64,000 bases of DNA from a virus, in IMG/VR virus record IMGVR_UViG_3300010354_000062, positions 1 to 64,000 of that record. The stretch is one strand, 5' to 3'. Under the pieces are notes generated by a model. That model did not search any database and was not told where the DNA came from. It saw only the letters and a program-made list of their open reading frames with translations. Below, piece by piece: positions 12,642-50,127 of the stretch. Within the stretch, counting starts at the first letter, position 1, and every line of letters starts with the position of its first letter. The position numbers were made by a program, and so were the translations under genes.

Positions 12642-12644
12642 ATA
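12637..12644 (+). promoter_or_regulatory. Late promoter box AATAAATA
   Basis: The box overlaps the stop of the first giant fibre gene. It is 18 nt before the ATG at 12663 with a GGAG site between, the same geometry as the boxes before 20362 and 47514. Confidence 0.7.
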
Positions 12645-12662
12645 ATACATTCGGAGTGCGAA

Positions 12663-20336: not shown

Positions 20337-20344
20337 CATAAATA
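20337..20344 (+). promoter_or_regulatory. Late promoter box CATAAATA
   Basis: A T4-late-like box 17 nt before the ATG at 20362, with a GGAG ribosome site between. Confidence 0.7.
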
Positions 20345-20361
20345 CATTGGAGACATAAATT

Positions 20362-20682: not shown

Positions 20683-20694
20683 TAGGAGCAAATA

Positions 20695-21654
20695 ATGGCT
20701 AGAAAAATTACAACAAGTCCAATGATGGATCAGCCTATTATGGGCAGTTTCAACATTGTGTCTAACACGTTGTCAACTTTAAGTACTAATGAATCTATGG
20801 TGCTTGATCCTAATGGATCCGGCATTGTAGAAAGCGATTCTCATATTGCAATTAGGAATCAACAGTCTTTAAGACTTCTTGAAGCCAGCGGTAACGGTAC
20901 AAACTATATTGCCATCCAGGCTGCTGCTAATATGACAGCCAATTACACAATAACTTGGCCTTCAGCAGTATCAGGGACAAACGGTTTCTTCCTGTCATCT
21001 GACACTTCGGGTAATTTAAGTTGGAGTTCAGCAGCAGGAGGTATTGCAGTATCAGATCCTGGTGCTAGTGCAACAGTACACTATCCATTCTTTGGAACTA
21101 ATGCTGGCTCTGTACCAACAACTTTTGGACCTAATGCAAGATCAAATTTATCTTTTGTACCTTCAACAGGTACATTGACAGCTACAATTTTTCAGGGTGC
21201 GCTGGACGGAAGTGCTTCCGGTGGCGGTACATTGACAATCCGCGGAACTTCTAGTGGTTCTAAAGCCACAGCGTCAGTGCTAATGACTGACGGTGTAGCA
21301 TCTTCAACAACTGCAACAGGTACTTTAGTTGTTACAGGCGGTGTTGGTATAAGTGGACAAATTACTGCTGCTACAATGGTAGAAACTTCTAGTATTGCAT
21401 TTAAAGAAAACGTAAATCCAATTACTGATGCACTCGACAAAATTATGATGTTAATGGGTGTGCAATATGATCGTAAAGACATGGACGCACATGAGGCAGG
21501 TTTGATTGCAGAAGATGTCTATAGAATTATTCCAGATGTTGTAAGTTTAGATCAGGACGGAAAACCATACGGAATTAAGTACACTAAACTAACTGCCTAT
21601 TTAGTTGAAGCTATTAAGACATTAAAGGTTGAAATTGACACACTTAAAGGTTGA
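20695..21654 (+). CDS. Tail fibre/spike with S74 intramolecular chaperone
   Basis: A 319-residue fibre protein. The C-terminal 88 residues match the peptidase S74 (endosialidase-type) intramolecular chaperone: SSIAFKENVNPITDALDKI starting near 232, then AGLIAEDV, IIPDVV and a final YLVEAIKTLKVEIDTLKG helix. In this family the domain assists trimer folding and then cuts itself off at a conserved serine; the serines at 232-233 are the candidates. The N-terminal part has low-complexity beta repeats (TGTLVVTGGVGISGQ). Its ribosome site is AGGAG. It is shorter than most S74 fibres, which suggests a short shaft or a modular tip. Confidence 0.88.
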   Translation: MARKITTSPMMDQPIMGSFNIVSNTLSTLSTNESMVLDPNGSGIVESDSHIAIRNQQSLRLLEASGNGTNYIAIQAAANMTANYTITWPSAVSGTNGFFLSSDTSGNLSWSSAAGGIAVSDPGASATVHYPFFGTNAGSVPTTFGPNARSNLSFVPSTGTLTATIFQGALDGSASGGGTLTIRGTSSGSKATASVLMTDGVASSTTATGTLVVTGGVGISGQITAATMVETSSIAFKENVNPITDALDKIMMLMGVQYDRKDMDAHEAGLIAEDVYRIIPDVVSLDQDGKPYGIKYTKLTAYLVEAIKTLKVEIDTLKG

Positions 21655-21660
21655 TATTTA

Positions 21661-22686
21661 ATGGCAACACTAAAAAATCTTACAATCAATGACACTGGAT
21701 TTTTAAGATTACCTTCGGGAACAACTGCTGAAAGACCAGGAAGCCCGTTAGCTGGAATGATAAGGTATAATACTACCTTAGCAGCTAACGAAGTTTATAA
21801 TGGTACCGAGTGGCAAACTGTACAAGAACAAACAGTTGGTTCTACTAGCACAGGTGGAGCTATTACCACAACCGGCGGATTTAGAATTCATACCTTTACC
21901 AGCGGAACAAATACATTTACTCCTACAAAAACAGGTGTAGTTGATGTACTAGTAGTTGCTGGTGGCGGTGGTGGTCACAGTATTAGCGGAGGCGGCGGCG
22001 CCGGCGGTTATATTTTTGTTTCTGGCGTGCCAGTTGTTGCAGGTACTGCTTATCCAGCCGTAATAGGTACCGGTGGTAATGGATGTTCAAGCCATAGTGC
22101 CAATGATGCACAGTCCGGTAACCCATCTACATTTGGTGGTAGTACTCCGGTGGCTATAGTATCAACTGGTGGTGGTAGAGGAGCTCATTATCCTCCAGGC
22201 GGTCAACCATCTGCTGGAGGCGGATCAGGTGGTGGTGGACCAGGATGGAATGGCGGACCGGAAACTATTCATGCTGGTGGTACTGGCACGGCAGGTCAAG
22301 GACATCCAGGGGGTGTTGGAGCACATTACAACGGCACACCAACTGGTACACACTACGGTGGTGGTGGCGGTGGCGGAGCCGGAACTATGGGTTACGGACG
22401 TTCAAATCGTAATCAACAAGGTCGTGGTGGAGAAGGAATGGCATCTAATATTGGCGGCAGCGTCACATGGCGAGCAGGTGGAGGTGGTGGTGGATATCAT
22501 AGTCCCAGCCACGGAGTGTCGACACTTGCAGGTAGAGGAAGTTTAGGTAACACATTACCAGGACAAAATGGTCAAGCAGGTGGTACAAATCTTGGTGGTG
22601 GTGGTGGTGGCGGACCATATAGTCCAGAACCACAGGGTGGCGGACCAGGCGGACCAGGTGTAGTTATAGTTAGGTATAGAGGTTAA
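21661..22686 (+). CDS. Glycine-rich adhesin 1 of 3
   Basis: A 341-residue protein, first of three tandem paralogues. Residues 1-60 carry an N-terminal MATLKNLTINDTGFLRL start and the module GTTAERP...GMIRYNTTLAANEVYNGTEW. Residues 70-115 form a beta sandwich strand set (FRIHTFTSGTNTFTPTK, VVDVLVVAGGGGG). The rest is dominated by glycine with GGGG, GPGG and GGHP blocks and ends in PGVVIVRYRG. This is the glycine-rich domain layout found in phage fibre adhesins, where polyglycine-II helices form the receptor-binding tip. It starts 6 nt after the S74 fibre gene. Confidence 0.85.
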   Translation: MATLKNLTINDTGFLRLPSGTTAERPGSPLAGMIRYNTTLAANEVYNGTEWQTVQEQTVGSTSTGGAITTTGGFRIHTFTSGTNTFTPTKTGVVDVLVVAGGGGGHSISGGGGAGGYIFVSGVPVVAGTAYPAVIGTGGNGCSSHSANDAQSGNPSTFGGSTPVAIVSTGGGRGAHYPPGGQPSAGGGSGGGGPGWNGGPETIHAGGTGTAGQGHPGGVGAHYNGTPTGTHYGGGGGGGAGTMGYGRSNRNQQGRGGEGMASNIGGSVTWRAGGGGGGYHSPSHGVSTLAGRGSLGNTLPGQNGQAGGTNLGGGGGGGPYSPEPQGGGPGGPGVVIVRYRG

Positions 22687-22688
22687 TA

Positions 22689-23777
22689 ATGGCAACTTTA
22701 AAAAATGTTACAGTCAACGACACTGGTTTTGTACAAGTAGCCTCTGGTACTACCGCACAAAGAACATCAGCTAATGGCGATCTAAGATACAACAGTGAAA
22801 CTAATGAAGTTGAACAATATGTCAATGGTGCATGGCGTACAGTTGACGAATCAATTAGTGCAAGTTCGGGCACAACCATTGCCACAGGCGGTACAATTAC
22901 TACCGCAGGTGGATATCGTATACACACATTTACAACTTCTGGAACATTTAATGCTCCCTATACAGGTAGAGCTGAAGTTTTAGTTGTTGCTGGAGGTGGC
23001 GGTGGTGCACCTATTGGAGGTGGTGGTGGCGCGGGCGGTTATGTATTCACAGCATCAGTTCCAGTTGCAGGCGGAACTAATTATACAGTTACACGTGGTA
23101 ATGGCGGCAGCGGTGGCTTCCACCATTATTCAGATGAAGGACAAGCTGGCGGTCCAAGTTCGTTTGTAGGACCAACAGTATCAATTACAGCTACAGGTGG
23201 CGGCAAAGGCGGTTTTTATGGTAGCGGGTCGCCAATTCCTGCAATGAGCGGAGGATCAGGCGGTGGTGGCCCAGGCGGCAACGGTTCTTCGGGCACAACA
23301 TACACATCATATCCAGGAGAACATCCTGGTGGCACCGGTGTAATAGGCCAAGGGCATCCAGGCGGATACGGCCACCATGGTACCGGTCCGGGATATCCAA
23401 ATCCTGGTTGTCAAGGTTCAGGTGCTACACACGCTGGAGGATCAGGTGGCGGCGCGGGATCAAGAGGTATTAGTAGATATTCTAATTGGGTACGTTGTCA
23501 CGGAGGCCAAGGACTTACAAATGCAGTAAGCGGTAGTGCAGTAATTTATGCAGCAGGCGGAGCAGGCGGCACACACGTAAATCCTTATTACGGACACAGT
23601 CCTGATCCAGGTGGTGCCGGCGATGGCACCGGTAATAGCGGAACACACGGCGGCGCGGTGGCTACGGCAGGAGGAGCTAATCGTGGTGGTGGTGGTGGTG
23701 GTGGCGCACACCCAGGCGGAGAAAATCCAGCAGGTGCCGGCGGAACTGGCGTAGTCGTAGTTAGATACAGGGTATAA
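22689..23777 (+). CDS. Glycine-rich adhesin 2 of 3
   Basis: A 362-residue paralogue of the flanking genes. It has the same MATLKNVTVNDTGF start, a GTTAQRTSANGDLRYNSETNEVE...W module that lacks the usual GSP loop, then YRIHTFTTSGTF and VLVVAGGGGG. The glycine region is rich in GGSGGG, GGPGG and GTG blocks and ends in GVVVVRYRV. It begins two bases after the previous stop. The conserved frame with diverged glycine loops fits a set of alternative or combined receptor-binding tips. Confidence 0.85.
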   Translation: MATLKNVTVNDTGFVQVASGTTAQRTSANGDLRYNSETNEVEQYVNGAWRTVDESISASSGTTIATGGTITTAGGYRIHTFTTSGTFNAPYTGRAEVLVVAGGGGGAPIGGGGGAGGYVFTASVPVAGGTNYTVTRGNGGSGGFHHYSDEGQAGGPSSFVGPTVSITATGGGKGGFYGSGSPIPAMSGGSGGGGPGGNGSSGTTYTSYPGEHPGGTGVIGQGHPGGYGHHGTGPGYPNPGCQGSGATHAGGSGGGAGSRGISRYSNWVRCHGGQGLTNAVSGSAVIYAAGGAGGTHVNPYYGHSPDPGGAGDGTGNSGTHGGAVATAGGANRGGGGGGGAHPGGENPAGAGGTGVVVVRYRV

Positions 23778-23779
23778 AA

Positions 23780-24976
23780 ATGGCAACACTTAAAAATTTA
23801 ACAGTAAACGACACAGGATTTATTAGATTACCACAGGGCACAACCGCTCAAAGACCTGGTTCGCCTGTAGCTGGTCAAATAAGATTTAATACTGATTATA
23901 GTAGAAACGAAGTCTATAATGGTTCAGCTTGGGTACTACTTGAGCACAGCGCATATGCTACGGGAGGCTCAGTGACTGCAAGTGGTGGTTATCGTATTCA
24001 TACTTTTACATCTGGCGCAACTACCTTTACTATGACCTATCCAGGAACTGTAGAAATTCTTGCAGTAGGGGCCGGTGGTGGTGGTGCCCAAATTGGTGGT
24101 GGTGGTGGCGCTGGTGGATTTATTTATGAATCTGGAACTAGTTTACCTGCTGGAAATTATACTGTCACTGTAGGCACTGGCGGAGATAGAGAAACACAAC
24201 ATAATGCTAATAATCAAAATCCTGGTAATCCTAGTAGTGTAGTTGGTCCAGGTATACCGCAAATGTATAATGCCATTGGTGGTGGTCGCGGTGCTTCTTA
24301 TACTTCTCAACACTCTGTGGTTAGATTATGTAATGGTGGCTCAGGTGGCGGCGGACCAGGCGGTCACAGCGGATCTGCAGGCGGTGAAGGTGGCTGGTGG
24401 CCACAGGCACCAGGCGGCCACGGAAATCAAGGTGCTGATCATCCGTGGTTAGCAGGCATGCCCAATGCTACTCTACAGGGAACACCAACTGGAAATAACA
24501 ACGACCATATTAGTATGGAAGGTAACGGTTATGGCAGCGGAATTATAGGTCAAGGACACCCTGGAGGATTTGGAGCTCACGGCGGTGGCTTTGGTTGGGC
24601 AGCAGGCAGTAACACTATTCACTGCGGTGGTGGTGGCGGCGGAGCAGGATCATCAGGTAAACCAACTTCAAGCGGCAACGAAATGGGAACAGGTGGCGCA
24701 GGACTAGCCAGCCAAATTACAGGTACATTAACAAGATATGCCGGCGGTGGTGGCGCAGGAACGCACGGCCCGGGTGGCTATGGACATTACGGACTCCAGG
24801 GTGCTCATGGAGGTGGCCTTAATTCTTTTGGTGGCGGTGAGGGCGGCACTGGTAGTGCAGCTGGACAAAATGGCGGCACAAACACCGGCGGCGGCGGCGG
24901 CGGCGGTTTCTGGGGTAATACGCAAAGCGGCTCGGGCGGCCCTGGATTAGTAGTTATTAGATATCGCGATCAATAA
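23780..24976 (+). CDS. Glycine-rich adhesin 3 of 3
   Basis: A 398-residue protein and the longest of the three. The N-terminal module reads RLPQGTTAQRPGSPVAGQIRFNT...NEVYNGSAW. It is followed by YRIHTFTSGATTF, then VEILAVGAGGGG and a glycine-rich region with extra His, Asn and Trp residues. It ends in GLVVIRYRDQ. It starts 2 nt after the previous gene, and its stop overlaps the next start by one base (TAATG). Three adjacent copies differing mainly in the glycine region suggest gene duplication followed by receptor-driven divergence. Confidence 0.85.
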   Translation: MATLKNLTVNDTGFIRLPQGTTAQRPGSPVAGQIRFNTDYSRNEVYNGSAWVLLEHSAYATGGSVTASGGYRIHTFTSGATTFTMTYPGTVEILAVGAGGGGAQIGGGGGAGGFIYESGTSLPAGNYTVTVGTGGDRETQHNANNQNPGNPSSVVGPGIPQMYNAIGGGRGASYTSQHSVVRLCNGGSGGGGPGGHSGSAGGEGGWWPQAPGGHGNQGADHPWLAGMPNATLQGTPTGNNNDHISMEGNGYGSGIIGQGHPGGFGAHGGGFGWAAGSNTIHCGGGGGGAGSSGKPTSSGNEMGTGGAGLASQITGTLTRYAGGGGAGTHGPGGYGHYGLQGAHGGGLNSFGGGEGGTGSAAGQNGGTNTGGGGGGGFWGNTQSGSGGPGLVVIRYRDQ

Positions 24977-25404
24977 TGCCTCAATTTAAAACAACACAAA
25001 ATATTCTCAAAGACTTTGGAGACGAAGTCTGGCACGATAATAATATGGACTCGGACAAAATTGTCCTACCACCAAGTCCAGATTGGAGCTACGATCGTGT
25101 GATGAACTTTGAAGACGTAGAAATTTGGGAAGTGCTTATAGAACGAGGTGGTGGTGTAGCTCTTTATGCAGCTTGGTGTCCCTACGCAGAATATTATATT
25201 ATAAGGCACAATTGGGGCGAAGATCTTGAAGCATTCTATGGTAGATTCGTACAGCCTCAAGTATTAGAAAGATTGGAACAACTGAAAATCCCACATAACA
25301 AAGATGCACATCTACGTTTTATGGATAAATTCAATGACAAAAACTACGGTGATATCAATAACGGTAGTTCACTTTACAGGTCTGGTGCTATTCAAAGTTT
25401 TTAA
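24976..25404 (+). CDS. Hypothetical protein at end of adhesin block
   Basis: A 142-residue acidic protein that I do not recognise. It contains WEVLIERGGGVALYAAWCPYAEYY in its middle and a C-terminal NGSSLYRSGAIQSF. It has no signal peptide or membrane helix. It is translationally coupled to the last glycine-rich adhesin (TAATG overlap) and ends 7 nt before the first 2OG-oxygenase-like gene. It could be a fibre-assembly protein or belong to the accessory island; the sequence does not decide. Confidence 0.7.
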   Translation: MPQFKTTQNILKDFGDEVWHDNNMDSDKIVLPPSPDWSYDRVMNFEDVEIWEVLIERGGGVALYAAWCPYAEYYIIRHNWGEDLEAFYGRFVQPQVLERLEQLKIPHNKDAHLRFMDKFNDKNYGDINNGSSLYRSGAIQSF

Positions 25405-25411: not shown

Positions 25412-25990
25412 ATGCTTATTGAAAATATTTTTTCAAGTTTTCTAGCTTCAACATATATTCAACCAACAACCGAACTAATTGATTACGCCCTGTCAACGGT
25501 TAGCAACGATCAAAACAGTAGAAAGGACAAGGTAAATCAATCTAATTTTTTAGATTTAAGTGTTCCCCCCATTAAAGAAATAACAGATCAAGTACAAAGG
25601 CATTTCAACGATATTCATCTTAAGATTGGATTAGCCAAAACACATAGCCAAATAGTAAGCGAAGCATGGTTTAACATTGGAAACAATTTAAATATAGATT
25701 CGCCCCATTGTCATCCAGGAAGAGTGTTTTCGGCGGTATATTATCTCGCAACACATGATTACTGCGGAGATTTAATTTTTATAAACCCTAACGATAGTTT
25801 AGTGCATACTATTCATCCAACATTCGTTAAAAGCTATAATTGTTTTAATTCACATAATTTTAAAATTTGTCCTAGAACAGGGCTATTAGTTATTTTTCCT
25901 TCATACTTACAACACTATGTACGTCTTAATAGTGGTGGCGAAAGGATTTCTTTAGCATTTAATTCACAAATTACTGAAAAATGCCTCTAA
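25412..25990 (+). CDS. 2OG-Fe(II) oxygenase-like protein (TIGR02466-type)
   Basis: A 192-residue protein with a double-stranded beta-helix (DSBH) oxygenase pattern. It has PHCHPGRVFSAVYYL (H99, H101), then CGDLIFINP, then GLLVIFPSYLQHYV (distal H168) and an ERISLAFN strand (R178 as 2OG-anchoring candidate). This matches the putative 2OG-Fe(II) oxygenase family with the HxHP...SGVYYL...FPS..H...RIS.N signature. The first metal motif is HxH rather than HxD/E, so the acidic ligand is uncertain. It is the first plus-strand gene of the island, convergent with the minus-strand operon. The substrate is unknown. Confidence 0.78.
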   Translation: MLIENIFSSFLASTYIQPTTELIDYALSTVSNDQNSRKDKVNQSNFLDLSVPPIKEITDQVQRHFNDIHLKIGLAKTHSQIVSEAWFNIGNNLNIDSPHCHPGRVFSAVYYLATHDYCGDLIFINPNDSLVHTIHPTFVKSYNCFNSHNFKICPRTGLLVIFPSYLQHYVRLNSGGERISLAFNSQITEKCL

Positions 25991-26529
25991 TAAAAACCAA
26001 TCCTTATAATATCTATATTTTTGAACTTGATGCTATACCTAATGATACGCATCAAGAAATATATACATTAATTACTCAAGAATTTTACAAAAGCCTATTT
26101 GGATATTACGGCGGCCGTAATGTATGTTTAGACTACATTGATAATTTAATCGTCAAGCAATTTACTCATCAGCTCTATGATATTTTTTTAGAGTGCTCTA
26201 ACCAAATATTTGGAGAATTACAATTATTAGAAAACAATAATAGATCAAGTTGGGCTAATTTATCAAACGAAAATTACTATCTAGCCAACATACATAATCA
26301 TGAAAAAACAGCCACTATCAACGGAGTTTACTATTTTAATATGCTAGAAAATTATGGAGGTGAATTAGATTTTTACGATTTTGAAAAAAAAATAATACAT
26401 TCTATTATACCAAAACAAAATCAATTAATCATATTTCCAGGATCGTTATATCACAAAAATAGATTTTGTCATAGCGAACGTTTTAGAATTTCTATCAATA
26501 TAGAAATTTTGTGCGACAAAATTTTTTAA
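25981..26529 (+). CDS. Divergent 2OG-Fe(II) oxygenase-like protein
   Basis: A 182-residue protein overlapping the previous gene by 10 nt. It keeps the same fold pattern in weaker form: IHNHEKTATINGVYYFN (H105, H107), GGELDFYDF, then LIIFPGSLYHKN (H158) and ERFRISINIE (R169 candidate). It is the most divergent of the island's oxygenase-like proteins and could be inactive or a fold-only relative. Its stop overlaps the stop of the convergent minus-strand operon, leaving no room for a terminator. Confidence 0.65.
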   Translation: MPLIKTNPYNIYIFELDAIPNDTHQEIYTLITQEFYKSLFGYYGGRNVCLDYIDNLIVKQFTHQLYDIFLECSNQIFGELQLLENNNRSSWANLSNENYYLANIHNHEKTATINGVYYFNMLENYGGELDFYDFEKKIIHSIIPKQNQLIIFPGSLYHKNRFCHSERFRISINIEILCDKIF

Positions 26530-27119
26530 AAAAATTGCGTGTTAAAACTAATTGAAATTCTATCTTGATTTGTTAAATTTGTAGTTACTGAATGTTCTAA
26601 CCAACTAGGAAATATCAGCAACATACCTGTCTTTGGCTTGTAAGAAATAGTTGCACTATTGACTGCATTCCAATTTTCCACAATATATGGTGGTATATAA
26701 TTTAACATATAGTTTTCTCTATGAAAAATTATATCGCCACATATACCTTCCGGAACTTGAACATAATAAACTCCACTAAACAAGCTTCTTGGATGAGTAT
26801 GTTTAAGATTGTAACTGTATTTGTCGTTTACATTTATCCAAGAACTTTGTATAGATGTTACACAAGTTGATCTAAATCCCATAGATTTATGTACTTTTTG
26901 TAATTCTAAATTAATCAAATTTGTCAACTCAGTGTAAGATTCGTCTTTGTCAAAATCAAAACATTGCCATCCGCCTTGATACAAATTTTTTTGATGGCCA
27001 TCATTGGTCGCTTTTAATTTTTTTACGAATTCAATTAACGATTGATTATTTGCTTTAGGTAAACTAGTTTCCCATATGCAGTTAGAAAACCAAATTGTTT
27101 TTTCAAGGGGTCGCATCAA
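26526..27119 (-). CDS. 2OG-Fe(II) oxygenase-like protein (TIGR02466-type), last gene of operon
   Basis: A 197-residue protein with LKHTHPRSLFSGVYYVQVPEG (H107, H109), CGDIIFHREN, GMLLIFPSWLEHSV (H176) and QDRISISFN (R187). It is a close paralogue of the next gene upstream (27116-27700), sharing GGWQC, HPRSLFSGVYY and FPSW.EHSV. The overlap ATGA-type junction shows translational coupling. It is the promoter-distal end of the 9.7-kb minus-strand operon. The pair clearly arose by duplication; retention of the ligand residues in both suggests both are active. Confidence 0.8.
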   Translation of the reverse strand: MMRPLEKTIWFSNCIWETSLPKANNQSLIEFVKKLKATNDGHQKNLYQGGWQCFDFDKDESYTELTNLINLELQKVHKSMGFRSTCVTSIQSSWINVNDKYSYNLKHTHPRSLFSGVYYVQVPEGICGDIIFHRENYMLNYIPPYIVENWNAVNSATISYKPKTGMLLIFPSWLEHSVTTNLTNQDRISISFNTQFF

Positions 27120-27700
27120 AAATTGTAATTAGTATTGAAAGCAATTGAAATGCGATCCTGGTTGGTAAAATTAGGACTTACAGAATGTTCAAACCAACTT
27201 GGAAAAATTAATAACATACCTGTTTGAATTTTGTAAGTTGCTGTACCGCTGGTTAAATCATTCCATTCTTCAACAATATAATCAGGAATATAACTTAATG
27301 GCAGATTATCTCTATGGAAAATTATATCGCCACAATCTCCTTCAGGTACACAGGCATAATAGACACCACTAAACAAGCTTCTTGGATGTAGGTGTTTTAA
27401 ATTAAAACTCTGTGGAGGATTTATATTAATCCACGACCCTTCTATGTAAGATGGAAAGTTTTCCTTTAACCCCATAGACAAATGAACATCCATAACTAAA
27501 TTATTACATACATTAATTAGATTCAAATAAGCCTGATTTGGGTTCTCAATATCGTAACATTGCCAACCTCCTCGATTTGACTTTGTTGTACCTGGCTTAT
27601 TTGCCTTTAAATTATAGGCATACTCAATTATAGCCTCATTATCTATGTTATCTAATACAGTTTCCCATACAGGTGTTCCAAACCATTTATTTGCTATCAT
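27116..27700 (-). CDS. 2OG-Fe(II) oxygenase-like protein (TIGR02466-type)
   Basis: A 194-residue paralogue of the downstream gene. It has LKHLHPRSLFSGVYYACVPEG (H103, H105), CGDIIFHRDN, GMLLIFPSWFEHSV (H172) and QDRISIAFN (R183). The N-terminal GTPVWET resembles the start of other members of this family. It ends 4 nt inside the next gene and starts 4 nt after the stop of the previous one. Hydroxylation or a related oxidative step is expected from the family; the substrate is not indicated. Confidence 0.8.
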   Translation of the reverse strand: MIANKWFGTPVWETVLDNIDNEAIIEYAYNLKANKPGTTKSNRGGWQCYDIENPNQAYLNLINVCNNLVMDVHLSMGLKENFPSYIEGSWININPPQSFNLKHLHPRSLFSGVYYACVPEGDCGDIIFHRDNLPLSYIPDYIVEEWNDLTSGTATYKIQTGMLLIFPSWFEHSVSPNFTNQDRISIAFNTNYNF

Positions 27701-27704
27701 ATTT

Positions 27705-28292
27705 TTAATTAAAATTAAAGTTTATCGTAATCCTTGTATTAGTGTTTATAGGATTACTACCCGAATGATATTGAAATCCGTCAATATGTAATAAGGTATT
27801 TGCCACAGGTTTTATTCTTTGTTTAATTGGTAAAGACATTGATGAATTTTTTTGATAATCGTCACCCTTACTGTACATTTTATCAAATATTACGGTATCT
27901 CCGTCGCTGTCATTAAGATAATATATAAGTGTTTGATGCTCTTTGAATCCGTCGATGTGAGCTCCGTTATACATTTCTGGTTTATTGCCTATAACAGGCA
28001 CTTGAAGATTTATTTTTATTCTTAAAAAGTTATTAATTTTTATATTTGCTTGATGCTGAAAGTTTTCAACAATTGGACCCATTAAAGAAATAAGTTCAGA
28101 TACTTTGCCCCTTTCAGTGTCCCATACTGTGTGAGTAAAGCCAAAACTTGGAAAGGCCTTAGCATCTTTGGTATGACCGTTAAAATTCAAAAAAGCAATA
28201 TCGGGCTGGTAATACCAAGGAAAATCAACTCCAGTAATTACTTGATATAATTTATTATAGTTGTTTTCAGTTAATATTTTTTCGTAAATCAT
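27705..28292 (-). CDS. 2OG-Fe(II) oxygenase, HxD...H type
   Basis: A 195-residue protein with a full canonical facial triad: NGAHIDGF (H112, D114), a YYLNDSDGDTVIF strand, then LHIDGFQYHSGS (H176) and NTRITINFN (R187 for 2OG). The YLNDSDGDT signature is shared with the genes at 28289, 31693 and 36306, defining a second oxygenase subfamily within the island. It overlaps the upstream gene by 4 nt. This is a prolyl-4-hydroxylase-like fold; the product or protein acted on is unknown. Confidence 0.85.
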   Translation of the reverse strand: MIYEKILTENNYNKLYQVITGVDFPWYYQPDIAFLNFNGHTKDAKAFPSFGFTHTVWDTERGKVSELISLMGPIVENFQHQANIKINNFLRIKINLQVPVIGNKPEMYNGAHIDGFKEHQTLIYYLNDSDGDTVIFDKMYSKGDDYQKNSSMSLPIKQRIKPVANTLLHIDGFQYHSGSNPINTNTRITINFNFN

Positions 28293-28879
28293 ACAAAATT
28301 AAAATTAATTACATATCTGTGTTGCGATACACTTGGATTACTACTTGCATGATACCTAAAGCAGTCAAAAAATACTCCTGTGCCTTTTTTAGGAGATACT
28401 TTATCAGCAATAGTAAAAGTGTCAGGAATAGTATTAAAATCGTCATACTCATTAAACAAAAAAGTATCGCCGTCTGCATCATTTATGTAATATACAAACG
28501 CTTTCTCTCCGCTCCCACGATCTGAATGCGGAAAATTATAGTTAAATTCTTTGAACGTCTTATCTCTTAATAGTAAATTAATTTTAATTCTAGTAATCTT
28601 ATTAATTGTAATCCCTGCATTTTCAGCAAAAATATAAAGCACTGGATATATAAATCCGTGAAGATTAGAAACAATGTGTCCTTCATCTAAAACACTATGA
28701 GTAAATTGGCCGTTTTCTATTATATTAGAATTTTTAGATAATTTTAAATAATGTTCTAAAAACGGATCCGTGTCTGCGTAAGAAGTATTTGGAGCATAGT
28801 AATAGGGAATTTCTGTAACTATCTTTTCTAAATCATCTTCATATTTTTTAGGGAGACATTTATCTAATTTAACAATCAT
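28289..28879 (-). CDS. 2OG-Fe(II) oxygenase, HxD...H type
   Basis: A 196-residue protein with NFPHSDRG (H118, D120), YYINDADGDTFLF, FFDCFRYHASS (H177) and QHRYVINFN (R188). It belongs to the same subfamily as 27705-28292. Its ATG overlaps the halogenase stop (ATGA at 28876-28879), so it is translated directly after the halogenase. That tight coupling suggests the two act on a shared substrate or pathway. Confidence 0.84.
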   Translation of the reverse strand: MIVKLDKCLPKKYEDDLEKIVTEIPYYYAPNTSYADTDPFLEHYLKLSKNSNIIENGQFTHSVLDEGHIVSNLHGFIYPVLYIFAENAGITINKITRIKINLLLRDKTFKEFNYNFPHSDRGSGEKAFVYYINDADGDTFLFNEYDDFNTIPDTFTIADKVSPKKGTGVFFDCFRYHASSNPSVSQHRYVINFNFV

Positions 28880-30444
28880 GAATTGTCCTTCATATATTGT
28901 ATAAATGAATAATGATCAGCCAACAACGGCAAGTTTAAGTTCACGTTTTTAAAATATTGATGTTTTAATAGATCGTAATCTTCTTTTCTTTTACCATGAT
29001 AAAATGATTCAAATAATTTTTTAGCATGATCTGGATTGAAAAACTGTTGCCCATTACCGCAGGCTAAGAAACTTTTTGCTGCCCAATCTAAACCAATGTT
29101 TGAAAACATGTCATAACTTGGTATAGTATACTTAGATTCTTCTATTAATTTGTGCAACGATTCCGGAATCTTATTATCTACTGTAAAGTTTCGCCAAAAA
29201 TCTGTATCATCTCTTTTTGTTATATAATGAAAGTAAACAAAGCCCAGAGTATTATCATTCATATCAGTATGTCGCTGGTTGACTTTGTCTCTGGCCATTT
29301 GATCGTCGTGTGTAATAGCAGAAGGATTTTCAATCCAAGCATTCAACATCATTAACGAAGTCCAAATTGATGTAGCTTCTAATGGTTCAATAAATCCCGA
29401 GCTTAATCCTACGGCCAGACAATTTTTTTCGTATATTTTTTCATATCGTCCTGGTTCAAAATTAAGCAGTCTTGGAACTTCAACTTCAATGCCAATTTCT
29501 TGATCCAATTCTTTTTTAGCCTCTTCGTCAGATATTCTATCACTGTCGTAGACATAACCGCATCCGTAGCGTCCCTGCACCGGTATTTTCCATACCCACC
29601 CCCACTTCATTGCAGTTGATTCTGTGTAAGGTGGAATGATTTCTGAGTTGTTTGGAATAAAGAAAGGCATTGCTCTTTTAGCAGGCAAATATTCTTTGTA
29701 ACTTTTCCAAGGTGTTTTATAGAGATTGCCTATGATTAATCTTTTAAATCCTGAACAATCAAATACAAAGTCACATTCTATTTTGCTAGATCCAATGTTA
29801 ACTGATGTAATGTTTCCGCTATCGTCTACAGTAAAGTCAGTAACAACGCCATCTACTACAGTGATACTTCTTTCTCTTCCTATGTTTTCAAAACAATTAG
29901 CCAGCAGGTTAGCATCAAAATGTAATGCTGTTCTGCCTAGTCTAGTAAAATGTAAAATAGGATCTAGAGTTTTTGTAGAAGCATCTGAGTTTGGTACAAA
30001 GCGTACACAATTTCTATCACAGGCATGTGAATTAAAATCAATACCGTTAATGGATCCGCCGCTGGCAATAACCTCAAGATCCATCAACGGATATTTGGTA
30101 TGATGAACTTCACTTAATATAGTATGATCTAGGCCAAAATTATCCATAAAAGGATGATAGTAGTAAGATCTATCGCCGTTCCAGTTTGAAAATTTTATAC
30201 CGTTTTTGAGTACAGCCTTGGCTTCTTTAATCACTCTGCTAACAGGAACATCAATTTCGTCTAAAAAATCTATGATATGGGGAGTTGTGCCTTCCCCTGC
30301 ACCCAATATTCCTATTTCGCTGCTTTGTATAACTGTTATTTGACTATCTGGATAGTTTGCTCGAACAAATAGTGCAGAAATCCAACCTGCACTTCCGCCG
30401 CCAACAATTACAAATTTAAAATTTTTGTCAATTGATTTCATCAT
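28876..30444 (-). CDS. Flavin-dependent tryptophan-halogenase homologue B
   Basis: A 522-residue member of the tryptophan halogenase family (Pfam Trp_halogenase), FADH2-dependent enzymes that oxidise halide to hypohalous acid. It has the GGGSAGW dinucleotide motif at 15-21, GAGEGTTP at 48-55, the catalytic lysine candidate K80 in VLKNGIKF (PrnA K79), the diagnostic WVWKIP at 283-288, and GFIEPLEATS with E356 at the PrnA E346 position. The next residue is Ala where PrnA has Ser347. Two start codons are adjacent (30444, 30441), preceded by AGGA. It overlaps the SGNH gene upstream. Marine phage halogenases are known; the substrate here is open. Confidence 0.9.
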   Translation of the reverse strand: MMKSIDKNFKFVIVGGGSAGWISALFVRANYPDSQITVIQSSEIGILGAGEGTTPHIIDFLDEIDVPVSRVIKEAKAVLKNGIKFSNWNGDRSYYYHPFMDNFGLDHTILSEVHHTKYPLMDLEVIASGGSINGIDFNSHACDRNCVRFVPNSDASTKTLDPILHFTRLGRTALHFDANLLANCFENIGRERSITVVDGVVTDFTVDDSGNITSVNIGSSKIECDFVFDCSGFKRLIIGNLYKTPWKSYKEYLPAKRAMPFFIPNNSEIIPPYTESTAMKWGWVWKIPVQGRYGCGYVYDSDRISDEEAKKELDQEIGIEVEVPRLLNFEPGRYEKIYEKNCLAVGLSSGFIEPLEATSIWTSLMMLNAWIENPSAITHDDQMARDKVNQRHTDMNDNTLGFVYFHYITKRDDTDFWRNFTVDNKIPESLHKLIEESKYTIPSYDMFSNIGLDWAAKSFLACGNGQQFFNPDHAKKLFESFYHGKRKEDYDLLKHQYFKNVNLNLPLLADHYSFIQYMKDNS

Positions 30445-31102
30445 AGAATAGTTCCTGTTTTGTTTCTACAGGGTATTTAAAATCTTTTACATCGATATCA
30501 AAAGTTCCGCTAAGGTTCCATAATTTTATTTTTTCATAAAAAATTTTGTTGTTTTCCTTATTCATATGACATGTTCTACCACTATCATACACATATTCAT
30601 TTATATTATATTTTTCATAATCCAATAAACTAATGTAGTGCATACAATTTTGATTATCATAGATACTGTCAGGGGTTACAGGAATCAGTAGTGCCTTTGG
30701 AAACATTTGTCTTATTGAATCAACTATTCCACGTTGGATAAGTGTTTCTCTACGATAATGCCATATATCTATAAAATAATCTTGAACACTATTTAGAATT
30801 TTCTTGTCCCACAGAGAAGCTGATTCTATTAACATTTTGGCAGAAAGATGATTTACAAAATGATTTTGTAATTTAAAATTGGGCATCCATAATCTACCAA
30901 TTGGCGGAGCAAATATTATTAACTTCTGATATTTTTTACTGTGTCGAAGTAATTGATCGTAAACATAAACTATACTTGCACCTTCTGCACTATAGTTGTC
31001 AAATTCAATATCTGCAGACAGTAATTCTACCCAACTATGATTGAATTTTTTATTTGGTACAGCAGAACTATCTCCAAATATTCCTAATTTTTTGTTCATC
31101 AT
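30428..31102 (-). CDS. SGNH/GDSL-like protein
   Basis: A 224-residue protein. The N-terminus KLGIFGDSSAVP matches block I of SGNH/GDSL hydrolases, where the serine after GD is the nucleophile. A GRTCHMNKENNKIF segment near residue 180 is a plausible block V with the catalytic histidine. The middle blocks (Gly and Asn of the oxyanion hole) are not obvious, so activity is uncertain. Family members hydrolyse acyl or acetyl esters, including O-acetyl groups of sugars. It sits between a P4H-like oxygenase and halogenase B, which it overlaps by 17 nt. Confidence 0.65.
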   Translation of the reverse strand: MMNKKLGIFGDSSAVPNKKFNHSWVELLSADIEFDNYSAEGASIVYVYDQLLRHSKKYQKLIIFAPPIGRLWMPNFKLQNHFVNHLSAKMLIESASLWDKKILNSVQDYFIDIWHYRRETLIQRGIVDSIRQMFPKALLIPVTPDSIYDNQNCMHYISLLDYEKYNINEYVYDSGRTCHMNKENNKIFYEKIKLWNLSGTFDIDVKDFKYPVETKQELFYDEIN

Positions 31103-31105
31103 AAG

Positions 31106-31696
31106 TTATTCAAAATATGTTAACCAACCAGTGATTATGTATTTGGTTCCTAATAATGGAGGATTACCTCTATGAGTATGAGAATATGTAGAAGGCCAAA
31201 AAAGTAATGTGCCTGTTTTAGGTTGAATTCTTTTATGAAGGTATAAAAATTCTGTCTCGCCACCGTGTTCTATATCATTCAAATACATCATAAATGTAAC
31301 AATTCTATTGGCTGTTTCGCAGCTGGTGTTTTCAAAATGCCAATTATGAAATCCCCCACCCGGGTCAGTGCGTTGAATCCTAAGCATGTAAAATCCATGC
31401 CTAGCAGCAGATTTAAGAATAGGAAATTCCTTACAGTAATCTTCGTAACATTCCCAAAATGAATTTATAAAAGGTAGTAGTATTGGCGATCCTTTAGGTA
31501 ATGTGATTACATCTGGATGCAACATAAACGCAGTTTCATCTTTACGTGATGTTGCTTTTGTTGTATACTGATCGTGATTAATTACAAGATTATACTGTCT
31601 AAGATCCTCAAAATATTTTATCATTGCAGCACAGTCTGTGTTTGATACAGCATTATCGTATATGCCAATAAAATCTTCTATTCTTTTTTCTATCAT
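31106..31696 (-). CDS. 2OG-Fe(II) oxygenase, prolyl 4-hydroxylase-like
   Basis: A 196-residue protein with a prolyl-4-hydroxylase-like active site: GGGFHNWHFEN (H120, E122; H117 alternative), then MYLNDIEHGGETEFL, a GTLLFWPSTYSHTH segment (H173 or H175) and GTKYIITGWL with Lys185 as the 2OG anchor, as in P4H enzymes. ATG overlaps the upstream stop (ATGA). It is a third subfamily in the operon, using Lys rather than Arg. Confidence 0.85.
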   Translation of the reverse strand: MIEKRIEDFIGIYDNAVSNTDCAAMIKYFEDLRQYNLVINHDQYTTKATSRKDETAFMLHPDVITLPKGSPILLPFINSFWECYEDYCKEFPILKSAARHGFYMLRIQRTDPGGGFHNWHFENTSCETANRIVTFMMYLNDIEHGGETEFLYLHKRIQPKTGTLLFWPSTYSHTHRGNPPLLGTKYIITGWLTYFE

Positions 31697-32256
31697 AGTA
31701 TATTAAAATTAATATTGATTCTGACGTCTGATACTTTGTTAATTCCCGCAGCATGAAATAGGCTACCATTAAACAAGACAAATCTACCTTTTTTATGATT
31801 TATTTTTTTTAAAACTAATTCCTTTTTATGGTCTTGAAATATCATAGTATCGCCATCGCTGTCGTTAACATAATAAATTAATACCATATGGTCAGTAGGG
31901 GAGTCTACATGAGGAGTTGTATAATCACCTACATTGCCCGGTAACTTTAGCGTGAGATTAGCTTTTGATCTTGTTAAAGATTTAAAAGGGTACTTTGAAC
32001 GTTCTAAAAAACGACTTAACACAAAATCAGATATAAGATAATTTTCTGAATTACGAGATGATTCTAAATAAAAAACATGTGTTAGTAAAACACATTCGCT
32101 TGAACTACTGTTAGAATTGGTTTCTATATCGCGCTTGCTAGTTGTATAATGATTGTGACCTACAGATAAAAACCAAGGAAATTTAGGATCACGTAAAAAA
32201 CTTTCTATGTGATCTTTTTCTTTGTCGTTTAATAGTTCATCAAAAATTTCAATCAT
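31693..32256 (-). CDS. 2OG-Fe(II) oxygenase, HxD...H type
   Basis: A 187-residue protein with TTPHVDSP (H116, D118), YYVNDSDGDTMIF, LFNGSLFHAAG (H168) and DVRININFN (R179). It belongs to the NDSDGDT subfamily with 27705, 28289 and 36306. It begins one base after the stop of the preceding gene and overlaps the following gene by 4 nt. The substrate is unknown. Confidence 0.85.
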   Translation of the reverse strand: MIEIFDELLNDKEKDHIESFLRDPKFPWFLSVGHNHYTTSKRDIETNSNSSSSECVLLTHVFYLESSRNSENYLISDFVLSRFLERSKYPFKSLTRSKANLTLKLPGNVGDYTTPHVDSPTDHMVLIYYVNDSDGDTMIFQDHKKELVLKKINHKKGRFVLFNGSLFHAAGINKVSDVRININFNIL

Positions 32257-32257
32257 G

Positions 32258-32911
32258 TTAACCTGTAAAGGTCAAATATCGTTTGTTAGGAAAATAAAAT
32301 TTTGATACGATTTTGTTTAAGCGGCCTTCTTTATCAAACCCAATAAAAGGTCGTTTATCAAATTTATATTCAGCGTATGGTCCGTTAGCATCTACATAAT
32401 GACAGAAAAATTGTATATGATATGAGCCTTCAGGAGCAGTAAAAATTTCTCGCCAATGTTCTACTTCGCATCCTCTGTAGATTACCAAGTCGCCCGAATT
32501 CATTGTGCATGGAGTATCACCTACAATAATAGGCCACTTGTAGTCTGCACCACGATAATCGTATTCTAAAGTAACTGTGGTTGATATTTCACAACTAGGT
32601 CGATCCACATGCTTTACTAAATTAGCTCCTGGTCTGTACACTCTATAATAAGAATACGCAGGATGTAAACTTAAACCAGTATTTGTTTCTAGCAAAGGAT
32701 GCAGATACAATAGGAACGACTCCATTAATGTATCTGAATACTGGCTGTGAGAATTGTGAATCTGCGGTGTGGCGCCTTCTTCTAAAGATAAATCATTTCT
32801 TTCGTCTAATAGTGCATACATTGAAGCAATTTTTATAAGTTCTGGGGTTAATGCATTATTAACCTGCACATATTTGTTTTCTTTAAAGAATGTAGCGTTA
32901 TCCATAGTCAC
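32258..32911 (-). CDS. 2OG-Fe(II) oxygenase-like protein
   Basis: A 217-residue protein with NLVKHVDRPSCE (H101, D103), then GDLVIYRGCEVEHWRE (H152) and SYHIQFFCHYVD, where a basic 2OG anchor is less clear than in its neighbours. The GxxLxxHxDRP layout resembles phytanoyl-CoA or P4H-type dioxygenases. It is longer at both ends than the other island members. It lies 6 nt after the oxygenase upstream. Iron binding looks intact; co-substrate binding is less certain. Confidence 0.76.
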   Translation of the reverse strand: MTMDNATFFKENKYVQVNNALTPELIKIASMYALLDERNDLSLEEGATPQIHNSHSQYSDTLMESFLLYLHPLLETNTGLSLHPAYSYYRVYRPGANLVKHVDRPSCEISTTVTLEYDYRGADYKWPIIVGDTPCTMNSGDLVIYRGCEVEHWREIFTAPEGSYHIQFFCHYVDANGPYAEYKFDKRPFIGFDKEGRLNKIVSKFYFPNKRYLTFTG

Positions 32912-32917
32912 TGTTAG

Positions 32918-33550
32918 TTACATATTTTGAATTGGTCGGTCATGCACCCATGTTACTAGACTGTACTTTGTACCAGATGTAACAGGATGGGCAATGTGCT
33001 TGTAGGCAAAATTTGACGGAAAAAGAATCAACATTCCTTTTTCAGGTTTAAGTTTGATTTTAAAATTTGGAAACTCAATATGACCGCCTTCGTAGTCGTC
33101 ATTTAAATAAACTACTGCACTTATAGCTCTGCCAGATGCCGTTCCTCCGTCATAATGGCCCTTATATTCTTCATTGGGTCTATATTTTAGTGCTTGGTAA
33201 GGTTCATGATACAGTAATTCGTGTATGTCATAGCGTTCTGTATATGGAATAGTTGTAGCTAACAATAAGAAATACATCTGATTATGAATGTCTTTCATCG
33301 CTTGATTATCTACTCCCTCCCCGGAAACTGTAATACCTAACCCAAGGTTAGTTCTAGCATTTTGTCTATGTCCCTGACCAACGGTCCCGGCACGACTCCA
33401 ACCAACTCCAGAATTTATATCAGAGCAACTTTGTTCTATTCTAGCAATAGTAATTTCAGGATCCGGCCATGCATTTTCAAAAATATCAATGCATCCGCCT
33501 ACTGTTGCACTAGGATTCAATCTACCTGTAAAAATATTGTTAACTAACAT
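32918..33550 (-). CDS. 2OG-Fe(II) oxygenase, prolyl 4-hydroxylase-like
   Basis: A 210-residue protein. I chose ATG at 33550, one base after the halogenase A stop, with an AAGGTGA site upstream; an in-frame GTG at 33562 would add four residues. It has YKGHYDGG (H132, D134), YLNDDYEGGHIEF, GMLILFPSNFAYKHIAHPV (H185 or H188) and GTKYSLVTW with Lys195 as 2OG anchor. This is the classic P4H pattern. Coupling to halogenase A mirrors the oxygenase coupled to halogenase B. Confidence 0.86.
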   Translation of the reverse strand: MLVNNIFTGRLNPSATVGGCIDIFENAWPDPEITIARIEQSCSDINSGVGWSRAGTVGQGHRQNARTNLGLGITVSGEGVDNQAMKDIHNQMYFLLLATTIPYTERYDIHELLYHEPYQALKYRPNEEYKGHYDGGTASGRAISAVVYLNDDYEGGHIEFPNFKIKLKPEKGMLILFPSNFAYKHIAHPVTSGTKYSLVTWVHDRPIQNM

Positions 33551-33551
33551 C

Positions 33552-35150
33552 TTATTCTTCACCTTTATGAATGTGTGTTTTTAAATATTGATATAGACTT
33601 GGACAGTCTTTTGCAATTTCTCGCCAACGTGCTTTACGGGCTTCGAACATTTGAAAAATATGATCAAAGGATCTTTTGTAATCATCTTTGTATAAAGTTT
33701 CTCGGAGTGTCACTGTTGTTCTATCTAAAACAAAGTAATTCATACCAACACTGATCCAATTAATACCAGCTATATTTGAATCGTGACTATATTCAAACAT
33801 TTTTGCACCTTGTAGTTTATAAAATCCTACCGCTGTTTCTGGTTCTAAATGAGGCATTCCTGGAGAATAGGTTCTCGATGCATTGGCCTTCCAATATTCT
33901 GTATCGTTTCTAATACTTAGGGCATAGTGCAAGGCAACAAACTGTGCAAAATTTCTCCACATGCCAAAGGTAGCAGCATTGTATACATCCTTGTCCCACT
34001 GTGTTACTGCTGGGCGCTCTAATGTTTTAATTAGTTTGAATAAGAATTCATGTACGGTATAAAGACCGTTTGACTCTAAAGGCTCAATAAAACCTGCGGC
34101 TAAACCAATAGCTACAACATTCTTGACAAAGGTTCGATTATGTATACCAACACGCATCTGAATATCTTTGAATTCTAATGCATCCACTTCCTCTCTAGTG
34201 CGAGGAACTATCATTTTATCACTCATCAAATGCTGCTTGAATTCTTCTTGGGCTGCTTCAGGAGAAATAAATTTATCACTGTATACATAACCAGTTCCTA
34301 ATCTTTCCCAACTAGGAATGTTCCATACCCAACCGTTACCAATAGCGGTGCTGTTGGTAAATGGTTCTAATTCTTTATCTTTATCTTTATAAGGTAATCT
34401 CGTAGCCCATGCTCTGTTGTTGGGCAACATATCAGCATAACTGATAAAAGGTTCGTTCAATGCACCTGCAAGTAAAATAGATTTAAATCCTGTGCAGTCA
34501 ACATAAAGGTCGGCTGATATAGAATCGCCTGAATCTAAAACCAATTTTTCAATACCATTATCGTTGACTTTTATGTCAACGACGGTTGCAGGAATATGTG
34601 TAACTCCGCGAGGCTTACAGTACCGTTCCCTTAACCATGCACCAAATTTAGTTGCATCAAAGTGGTATGCTACGTCTGAGTCTGGATTATAATTATCAAG
34701 CAAGCCGTATTTGTTTAATGAAAATTTATTCTGCTCCCATAGGGGTGAAGCAGGAAAAAAACAATCAACAAAATCTTGTATAGGAGTTTCGGGATATAGA
34801 GCTTTTTTAAGTAGCCAATCATTCATTCCGTTAACACAGCCCTCAACTAACGGCCGACCAAACGGATAATGAAATCCTCCCGCATCTTTTTCATAAAAAT
34901 CAGTAAATTTGATGCTCATTTTATAACTTGCATCTGTGTAAGTCATAAAATCTTGTTCGTCAATACCTAAAAAGTTACAGTAGTCATTAATGCCTCCAAG
35001 TGTGCTTTCGCCCACGCCAACAATTGGAACATTTGGACTTTCGATAACAACGATTTCTTTATTAGGAAATGCTTTTACGAGTGCTGCTGCACTCATCCAA
35101 CCTGCACTTCCACCTCCTACAATAAGAATTTTGTTAACTGGTTTTATCAT
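33552..35150 (-). CDS. Flavin-dependent tryptophan-halogenase homologue A
   Basis: A 532-residue tryptophan halogenase family protein, close to PrnA (538) and RebH in length. It shows GGGSAGW at 12-18, GVGESTLG at 45-52, catalytic lysine candidate K77 in SYKMSIKF, YHFDATKFGAWL near 162, WVWNIP at 274-279 and GFIEPLESNGLY with E359 and the following Ser conserved. All catalytic positions I can place are present. A reduced-flavin partner (flavin reductase) is not seen in the window, so the host would have to provide it. ATG overlaps the upstream stop (ATGA). Confidence 0.92.
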   Translation of the reverse strand: MIKPVNKILIVGGGSAGWMSAAALVKAFPNKEIVVIESPNVPIVGVGESTLGGINDYCNFLGIDEQDFMTYTDASYKMSIKFTDFYEKDAGGFHYPFGRPLVEGCVNGMNDWLLKKALYPETPIQDFVDCFFPASPLWEQNKFSLNKYGLLDNYNPDSDVAYHFDATKFGAWLRERYCKPRGVTHIPATVVDIKVNDNGIEKLVLDSGDSISADLYVDCTGFKSILLAGALNEPFISYADMLPNNRAWATRLPYKDKDKELEPFTNSTAIGNGWVWNIPSWERLGTGYVYSDKFISPEAAQEEFKQHLMSDKMIVPRTREEVDALEFKDIQMRVGIHNRTFVKNVVAIGLAAGFIEPLESNGLYTVHEFLFKLIKTLERPAVTQWDKDVYNAATFGMWRNFAQFVALHYALSIRNDTEYWKANASRTYSPGMPHLEPETAVGFYKLQGAKMFEYSHDSNIAGINWISVGMNYFVLDRTTVTLRETLYKDDYKRSFDHIFQMFEARKARWREIAKDCPSLYQYLKTHIHKGEE

Positions 35151-35524
35151 CTTGTGCTTTCCGCTAGAGCGAATACAATTGCATTTTCAAAATTTTGAAT
35201 TGTAACGTCATCAACCTCTGCTGGCGATAAATTAGTTAGATCATTATTTCTAAATGCGCCCATTTGATCGGCTAGCTGTTGTGTGTTAATTTTTTTATCT
35301 AAGAATGATTGATAAATTGCCACAACTTTAGCAACTAGATCTTTGATTTTTGTTTCATTTTGATTTCTAACAATAGCCTGAACCTTTAAACCGTCTAAAA
35401 GATCAATTGCTTTTAGATTAGGGGCTGGCGGCGAAACTACAGATGCTCCTTCCGGAGTCCAAACATGTTCAGTGCCTGGTGGTATTGTATATTCAACACC
35501 GTCTATAATTCTTTTTGTGCTCAT
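35147..35524 (-). CDS. Hypothetical operon protein
   Basis: A 125-residue protein that I do not recognise. It starts with STKRIIDGVEYTIPPGTEHVW, followed by a Pro-rich linker and a C-terminal helical half. It overlaps both neighbours by 4 nt (ATGA at each end), so it is firmly part of the operon and is made just before halogenase A. A carrier, adaptor or substrate peptide are possibilities; the sequence decides none of these. Confidence 0.7.
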   Translation of the reverse strand: MSTKRIIDGVEYTIPPGTEHVWTPEGASVVSPPAPNLKAIDLLDGLKVQAIVRNQNETKIKDLVAKVVAIYQSFLDKKINTQQLADQMGAFRNNDLTNLSPAEVDDVTIQNFENAIVFALAESTR

Positions 35525-36267
35525 TTTGCTTTCTCCTTGCGATTATTTTTTTTGAAGATATTGTACAGTTTACCAAGGCTATAGGAAATTCTTCGTCCTT
35601 TTAAAGCTGCCAATTCGTAATATTCTAATGTACAATACTCCGCGGCTATATTTATCGGCTTTTCAGTCAGCGGAATATACTTCTGAAAGGGTAATCCTGC
35701 ACTAAACTTAACAGTATAAGAACTAGACTTCTTAGGGAAAAATAGATTGACATTGGTTACAAAATTGTTATAAAACTGTATAACTCCGTCACAAAAAATT
35801 ACATCTTGATCATCAAACTCAGAAAAATAACTAGGTTTAGTTAAAAACCATTTTATGTCGCTGTTGCATTCAGCTATCCAAGGACTGATAATTTTAGCAT
35901 GAATATACTTGTCAGCTAGATGCGGAAACTGTCCGCTATCATGAGGTTGAACTAATTGAGTGTTAGGATAGTTATTAGAATAACGCCATTCTATGGCGCT
36001 GTTTGGACCGTCAATAAAAAATTCTAAATCAGACCAGCCTGGTATAGTTACTCCAGTAGTAAAATAATCATTTATAGCAGGACATCGTCTAATGGTTGGA
36101 GCTTTTAATGGTTCAAAATTGTCAGATACACTTCCGTCGCCGTTAAATGGAGGAGTTTTCTTAAACCATTCAGGAAACTTTTTTGAATGAGAAATGGGCG
36201 AAAGATTGCTAAGAAGGTAAGGATCAAAGGTTTTGAAAATAATTTCAATTGGTTTTGTTTTAAACAT
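35521..36267 (-). CDS. Hypothetical first gene of the halogenase operon
   Basis: A 248-residue protein, first behind the operon promoter. It has an N-terminal SKKFPEWFKKTPPF segment, a central WRYSNNYPNTQLVQPHDSGQFPHL with two His and an aromatic-rich C-terminal half that ends in a basic tail. It is soluble, with no signal peptide. I do not recognise the family and assign no function. The perfect TATAAATA box ends 4 nt before its ATG, with no Shine-Dalgarno sequence, which predicts a leaderless start. Confidence 0.72.
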   Translation of the reverse strand: MFKTKPIEIIFKTFDPYLLSNLSPISHSKKFPEWFKKTPPFNGDGSVSDNFEPLKAPTIRRCPAINDYFTTGVTIPGWSDLEFFIDGPNSAIEWRYSNNYPNTQLVQPHDSGQFPHLADKYIHAKIISPWIAECNSDIKWFLTKPSYFSEFDDQDVIFCDGVIQFYNNFVTNVNLFFPKKSSSYTVKFSAGLPFQKYIPLTEKPINIAAEYCTLEYYELAALKGRRISYSLGKLYNIFKKNNRKEKAK

Positions 36268-36271
36268 TAAA

Positions 36272-36279
36272 TATTTATA
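36272..36279 (-). promoter_or_regulatory. Perfect T4 late promoter TATAAATA for the halogenase operon
   Basis: An exact match to the T4 late consensus on the minus strand, 4 nt before the ATG of the first operon gene. It is the only good late box found for the 13 genes down to 26526. Confidence 0.8.
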
Positions 36280-36305: not shown

Positions 36306-38748
<2,443 letters not shown>

Positions 38749-50119: not shown

Positions 50120-50127
50120 GTATTTTG

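Follow-up and report, generated by a model that had tools for sequence, protein, structure and literature searches.

Why would a giant aquatic phage stack two halogenases and a long run of oxygenases in one operon, and what would such enzymes act on? We addressed this question in a window of 64,000 nucleotides, the whole stretch of DNA that was analysed, which comprises positions 1-64,000 of the 78-kb viral contig IMGVR_UViG_3300010354_000062 (the remainder of the contig, 64001-78327, being locus L087). The locus consists of 13 tightly packed minus-strand open reading frames (ORFs; 26526-36267), separated by gaps of -17 to +6 nt and overlapping by 4 nt at 6 of the 12 junctions, so that the closely spaced array described in an earlier note on this DNA was recovered in full. 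Comparison with Pfam and PHROGs confirmed two flavin halogenases (HAL1 and HAL2) and eight Fe(II)/2-oxoglutarate (2OG) oxygenase-like proteins (OX1 to OX8); the other products are one SGNH-like protein and two more proteins. We consider it about evenly probable that this operon serves the late post-translational tailoring of the phage's own tail adhesins.

Both halogenases scored far above the 21-bit cut-off of the PF04820 (Trp_halogenase) profile, HAL1 (33552-35150, minus strand) at 342 bits and HAL2 (28876-30444, minus strand) at 318 bits. Each retains the GGGSAG flavin adenine dinucleotide (FAD) motif (GxGxxG), the catalytic lysine (Lys77 in HAL1, Lys80 in HAL2), the catalytic glutamate (Glu359 and Glu356) and the WxWxIP motif (WVWNIP and WVWKIP), in agreement with the intact FAD, Lys and WxWxIP motifs reported earlier; across 93 halogenases the lysine was present in 93/93 and the glutamate in 84/93. 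The best PDB match of HAL1 was VirX1 of cyanophage Syn10 (6qgm; 339 bits, 36.9% identity), with which it shares all catalytic motifs and a clade represented by the VirX1-like Syn9 gp42 (99% in the Shimodaira-Hasegawa-like approximate likelihood-ratio test, SH-aLRT). In VirX1 itself the active site is large and open, and iodide is the halide preferred in vitro (PMC8407142). HAL2 falls outside that clade, closer to pelagiphage and bacterial tryptophan halogenases, with its nearest annotated phage match in pelagiphage HTVC008M (40%). Its alignment to tryptophan halogenases ends at about residue 445, no conserved lid was recognised in it, and the alignment appears to stop before the C-terminal part that binds the free amino acid in known enzymes. 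A bacterial-host origin of HAL2 was considered and set aside, as a scan of bacterial genomes gave one good relative, on a short contig of a metagenome-assembled genome that is itself perhaps viral. A third halogenase occurs in two close relatives (L005:13347-14774 and L007:14289-15710) and is absent from the window; there it lies on the adhesin strand, between a glycine-rich adhesin and the counterpart of the 142-aa protein that begins at 24976 in the window.

The count of eight oxygenase-like proteins in the operon likewise held, with OX2 recognisable solely by its matches to phage families and by an HxD...H motif of its own, but three further 2OG oxygenase genes that flank the operon on the plus strand had been missed. 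These are two PF13759 members at one end (25412-25990 and 25981-26529, the latter also matching PF13640) and the divergent OX11 at the other (36306-36881; HxD...H...R), which bring the contiguous 2OG oxygenases to 11. A twelfth 2OG gene lies at 50125, and one further protein, encoded towards the end of the contig, matched the family below cut-off only. Within the operon, and all on the minus strand, OX1 (32918-33562; HxD...H...K; PF13640, 58.6 bits) and OX4 (31106-31696; HxE...H...K) are prolyl-4-hydroxylase-like: the best PDB matches of OX1 were prolyl 4-hydroxylases followed by lysyl hydroxylase LH3, and the solved structures nearest to OX4 were peptidyl prolyl 4-hydroxylases. OX3 (31693-32256), OX5 (28289-28879) and OX6 (27705-28292) have HxD...H...R. 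OX7 (27116-27700) and OX8 (26526-27119), which are 55% identical and match PF13759/TIGR02466, carry HxH where the other operon oxygenases carry HxD/E. As a check on our profile counts, the metal-site pattern was found in 485 of 494 profile hits of 150-260 aa, against 61 of 269 other ORFs of the same length. Judging from relatives, OX1 probably starts at the ATG at 33550 rather than at the listed GTG, and OX2 (32258-32911; phrog_2954) probably a few codons downstream of its listed GTG. We also observed that proteins bearing 2OG oxygenase motifs are filed under the PHROG labels 'DNA endonuclease V' (phrog_274) and 'ferrochelatase' (phrog_2954), and probably also under 'minor coat protein' (phrog_1644); labels of this type concern 27705-28879, 31693-32911 and 36306-36881 as well as the cyanophage loci L003 and L088, and have been propagated into cyanophage records.

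The remaining three products are less easily placed. The first gene (35521-36267, minus strand) belongs to the phrog_7084 family, a recurrent partner of phage halogenases that lies beside them across many phages. Its AlphaFold model (mean predicted local distance difference test score, pLDDT, 80) gave Foldseek matches to a dUTPase/dCTP-deaminase-like fold, with probability 1.0 and a best E of 1.2e-3 against PDB and, against BFVD, uncharacterised phage proteins down to 4e-17 followed by dUTPases. The region of motifs 3 and 4 aligns to dUTPase (with an approximate Escherichia coli Dut sequence as reference), but the catalytic Asp of motif 3 is replaced in the window copy (GVIQF versus GVIDxD), and dUTPase activity was rejected on this ground. 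The second gene (35147-35524, minus strand) encodes a 125-aa protein, the fastest evolving member of the operon; the idea that it is a peptide precursor found no support, as iterative profile searches retrieved only copies from related clusters. The protein at 30428-31102 (minus strand), missing in some relatives, was described earlier as SGNH-like: its GDS motif and a His are conserved and its Foldseek matches are mostly SGNH hydrolases, but the GxND block is replaced and no match reached E <0.001 (best 0.011), so that the fold assignment stays tentative.

To assess whether the operon is a functional unit, we compared six related contigs (those holding L037, L038, L005, L007, L009 and L010). 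All six share the order dUTPase-fold gene, 125-aa gene, HAL1, OX1, OX2, OX3, OX4, (SGNH), HAL2, OX5, OX6, OX7, (OX8), although each lacks some members, with OX4, SGNH and OX8 coming and going, and all six place the operon between GroEL/OX11 on the tail-neck side and the 142-aa protein plus adhesins on the other. Because the identical order recurs in independent contigs, the grouping is beyond chance. Every complete orthologue of OX1, OX3 to OX6 and OX11, which is itself conserved in the relatives, keeps the iron triad HxD/E...H with R/K; orthologues of OX2 keep HxD...H with an ambiguous R/K position, and those of OX7 and OX8 keep HxH...H...R. For HAL1 the ratio of nonsynonymous to synonymous substitution (dN/dS) was about 0.02-0.06, and most other comparisons gave about 0.05-0.2, the lowest matching those of GroEL; with synonymous sites close to saturation, these figures are rough. 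Low dN/dS and retained active sites together exclude the active-site decay that the earlier note had put forward as a counter-test of its proposal, and the order, active sites and promoter palindrome (described below), kept in six relatives under purifying selection, lead us to conclude that the operon genes are functional. One deletion scar was also seen within the operon at L039:13462-14175, where OX4 is lost except for its ~14 initial codons, which now continue in frame into the SGNH-like gene.

The timing of expression is suggested by the 38-bp divergent gap between the operon and OX11, which holds a late-promoter-like box and an overlapping palindrome (36268-36279, minus strand). The box, TATAAATA, was confirmed on the minus strand at 36272-36279, ahead of the operon, with its 3' end 4 nt before the first ATG; should it act as a late promoter of the T4 type, this short distance would leave the first message without a leader. 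The palindrome, TAAATATTTA (36268-36277), is present once in the contig and kept in 6/6 relatives, unlike the rest of the gap, which cannot be aligned among them; four relatives keep the full box and two only TAAATATTTA. The motif NATAAATA is present in 13 copies in the 78-kb contig against a mean of 47 for permuted motifs, and 8 of the 13 lie ≤45 nt upstream of a gene, where 2.4% of positions fall, a count somewhat inflated because a few copies contain the stop codon of the preceding gene. Its copies also lie ahead of virion genes, tail-fibre genes among them, such as the long tail fibre at 12663. Transcription of the operon late in infection is likely on these grounds, and TAAATATTTA, which may be a two-way promoter core or an operator, might also serve the divergent oxygenase. 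The earlier proposal of a tailoring operon, probably late, agrees with this conserved element and with the synteny, intact active sites and linkage in related genomes.

That linkage, whose absence the earlier note had named among its counter-tests, is strong and extends well beyond close relatives. Among 74 independent viral halogenase contigs from IMG/VR, 60 held a 2OG gene ≤5 kb from the halogenase, 42 held at least four such genes, 31 carried two or more halogenases and the dUTPase-fold protein was present in 28, all of these being lower bounds because many contigs are short. In the same loci 2OG genes were denser near a halogenase (0.34 per kb at ≤5 kb) than farther off (0.10 per kb), and an adhesin homologue was found in 30 of the 55 halogenase contigs covered over at least 10 kb. 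The lineage of the phage is also informative: its terminase is nearest to those of PA5oct, MIJ3 and Phosso (52-55%), then Atu_ph07 and CBB, which sets aside a cyanophage identity or host in favour of the PA5oct/Phosso/CBB jumbo group and means that the halogenase/2OG module spans distant T4-like phages. A near-identity DNA search of the phage collection gave no match to the window.

Stacks of this kind are not unprecedented, contrary to the earlier suggestion that viral halogenases and oxygenases were known singly. Annotated records of Syn9, S-RIM44 and P-RSM6 each have two tandem halogenases and after them several 2OG genes, in S-CREM1 a run of 2OG genes comes after a single halogenase, and further stacks occur in Sf-FR1, Sf-FP1 and Sf-CH11. 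These cyanophage stacks directly follow tail-fibre or structural genes, with the gp13 neck gene after them in S-RIM44 and the Sf phages, and PF21722 glycine-rich genes lie just upstream of the halogenase in Syn9, S-RIM44, Sf-FR1 and S-CREM1; that domain was found in 9 of 10 tested genes, eight beside cyanophage halogenases and one from the window. The clusters thus share with ours tail-fibre/PF21722 genes, one or two halogenases, the dUTPase-fold protein (except in P-RSM6), several 2OG oxygenases and, where mapped (S-RIM44, Sf-FR1, Sf-FP1), an OX2-like 'ferrochelatase' and gp13 afterwards. They differ in that the 13-gene operon has two halogenases of different clades with five genes between them, an SGNH-like gene, an adjoining GroEL and a strand opposite to the adhesins, and in that it belongs to a PA5oct/Phosso-like jumbo lineage rather than to Kyanoviridae, with a different gene order. 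The operon represents a large variant with two halogenase clades, found in a new lineage of phages. Earlier papers list the parts singly as auxiliary metabolic genes (PMC9964418, PMC9602691, PMC3037559), and PMC7824862 describes a different halogenase/carbamoyltransferase cluster; we found no description in the open-access literature of the adhesin, halogenase, dUTPase-fold and 2OG genes as one unit.

What, then, is the substrate? None of the operon proteins with family matches (three have no informative match) is a scaffold-building enzyme, transporter or self-resistance protein, and since no scaffold-building enzyme is recognisable the substrate must pre-exist as a protein, glycan or host metabolite. 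Taken together, oxygenases resembling protein hydroxylases, a halogenase from the open-site clade and the fixed adjacency to adhesins favour a protein; in the window three glycine-rich adhesin-like genes (21661-24976, plus strand; two confirmed as PF21722) are the proposed substrates. Under adhesin tailoring, the operon would be co-transcribed late in infection, the 2OG oxygenases would hydroxylate side chains, those of proline for OX1 and OX4, HAL1 and HAL2 would use reduced flavin from the host to halogenate aromatic side chains with chlorine, bromine or iodine, and the tail adhesins, chiefly the adjoining glycine-rich ones, would change in stability or receptor binding as a result. Flavin halogenases that modify tryptophan within peptides and proteins exist (PMC10858898, PMC12518702). 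Ribosomal-peptide enzymes (the proteusin brominase, ChlH) resemble our proposal in halogenating aromatic residues of a polypeptide, but no leader or precursor peptide gene was recognised with the operon. Virion modification, which the earlier note had raised, is the reading that the evidence favours, with the adhesins as presumed target.

Several observations weigh against it. To date no virion protein is known to carry a halogen or hydroxyl modification, and the virion proteomics of S-CREM1 (PMC9964418) does not describe a search for such modifications. The halogenases of S-B64 and S-H38 lie away from tail genes, that of S-SSM7 lies inside a carbamoyltransferase and sugar cluster, and that of HTVC008M sits between terminase genes, although its 2OG block adjoins baseplate genes. 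The dUTPase-like fold of the first gene has no obvious role in tail tailoring, and the niche between adhesins and neck is highly variable among phages, so that adjacency may reflect tolerance rather than function.

A rather unlikely but substantial alternative is that the enzymes tailor a small molecule or surface glycan, host- or phage-made, aiding the infected cell or altering its envelope, as Iyer et al. 2021 (PMC7824862) proposed for the halogenase/2OG/carbamoyltransferase/phosphatase cluster of S-SSM6a, a type of cluster that S-SSM7 also has. That cluster too combines a halogenase with 2OG oxygenases near gp13, and our genome encodes, from 60.9 kb on, a nucleotidyltransferase/mannose-P isomerase, a glycosyltransferase and an FkbM methyltransferase; these sugar genes, however, lie at least 24 kb from the operon, which itself holds none of the carbamoyltransferase, sugar kinase and phosphatase genes of the S-SSM6a/S-SSM7 type nor other sugar genes, and OX1 and OX4 are closest to protein hydroxylases. 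We regard an effect on host metabolism as improbable. Here the oxygenases would lower 2-oxoglutarate and so act on nitrogen signalling, and the halogenase would make chlorotryptophan as an antibiotic precursor, as Sullivan et al. 2010 (PMC3037559) suggested for cyanophages and subsequent genome papers restated. Yet eleven oxygenases that have diverged, each with its own conserved active site, are not required to burn 2OG, no further pyrrolnitrin gene was seen, the phage lies outside the cyanophage lineage by its terminase, and the truncated alignment of HAL2 would leave out the part that holds a free amino acid.

The variable presence of OX4, SGNH and OX8 between relatives might suggest loose accessory genes parked in a variable region with no common substrate, but the core orders HAL1-OX1-OX2-OX3 and HAL2-OX6-OX7 are kept under purifying selection, and distant phages have related enzymes in the corresponding niche, which makes this very improbable. 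Marginally less probable still is nucleotide or DNA modification, in which the dUTPase-fold protein would bind a nucleotide and the oxidative enzymes decorate the base; the fold of the first gene speaks for it, but its motif-3 Asp is replaced and the oxygenases match PF13640 and PF13759, none of them a nucleic-acid oxygenase family.

To return to adhesin tailoring, aquatic phages commonly carry halogenases and 2OG oxygenases, which have so far been listed singly as metabolic genes with no assigned use, and a module fixed beside glycine-rich adhesins in two distant lineages gives them one common, testable target. If virion adhesins are indeed modified in this way, phages could alter receptor binding or the stability of their particles chemically, and enzymes able to halogenate large proteins would make useful tools. 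More speculatively, the module of jumbo phages and cyanophages might yield virions with halogenated, hydroxylated glycine-rich receptor-binding adhesins, a new form of maturation and of chemical variation in receptor binding, a generalisation we hold only as a tentative possibility.

Other genes around the operon also merit mention. The 142-aa protein between adhesins and cluster (24976-25404, plus strand; 80-91% identity in relatives) is rich in Trp and Tyr and has no match in Pfam, PHROGs or the phage collection; its homology to the small protein that separates adhesin and halogenase in cyanophages was rejected, as no common motif was seen. On the other side, a phage GroEL (36878-38467) lies within the tail region, its closest match in the phage collection at 60% identity, and no GroES was recognised near it. 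Two long tail fibres and a tail-fibre/baseplate protein occupy 7113-21654 (plus strand), and the tail sheath protein (43940-47485), at 1181 aa, is far longer than usual T4-like sheaths. The sugar-related genes noted above, at 60922-63891 and continuing into L087, comprise a nucleotidyltransferase/mannose-P isomerase fusion, the glycosyltransferase, the FkbM methyltransferase and a cupin, and may make a glycan.

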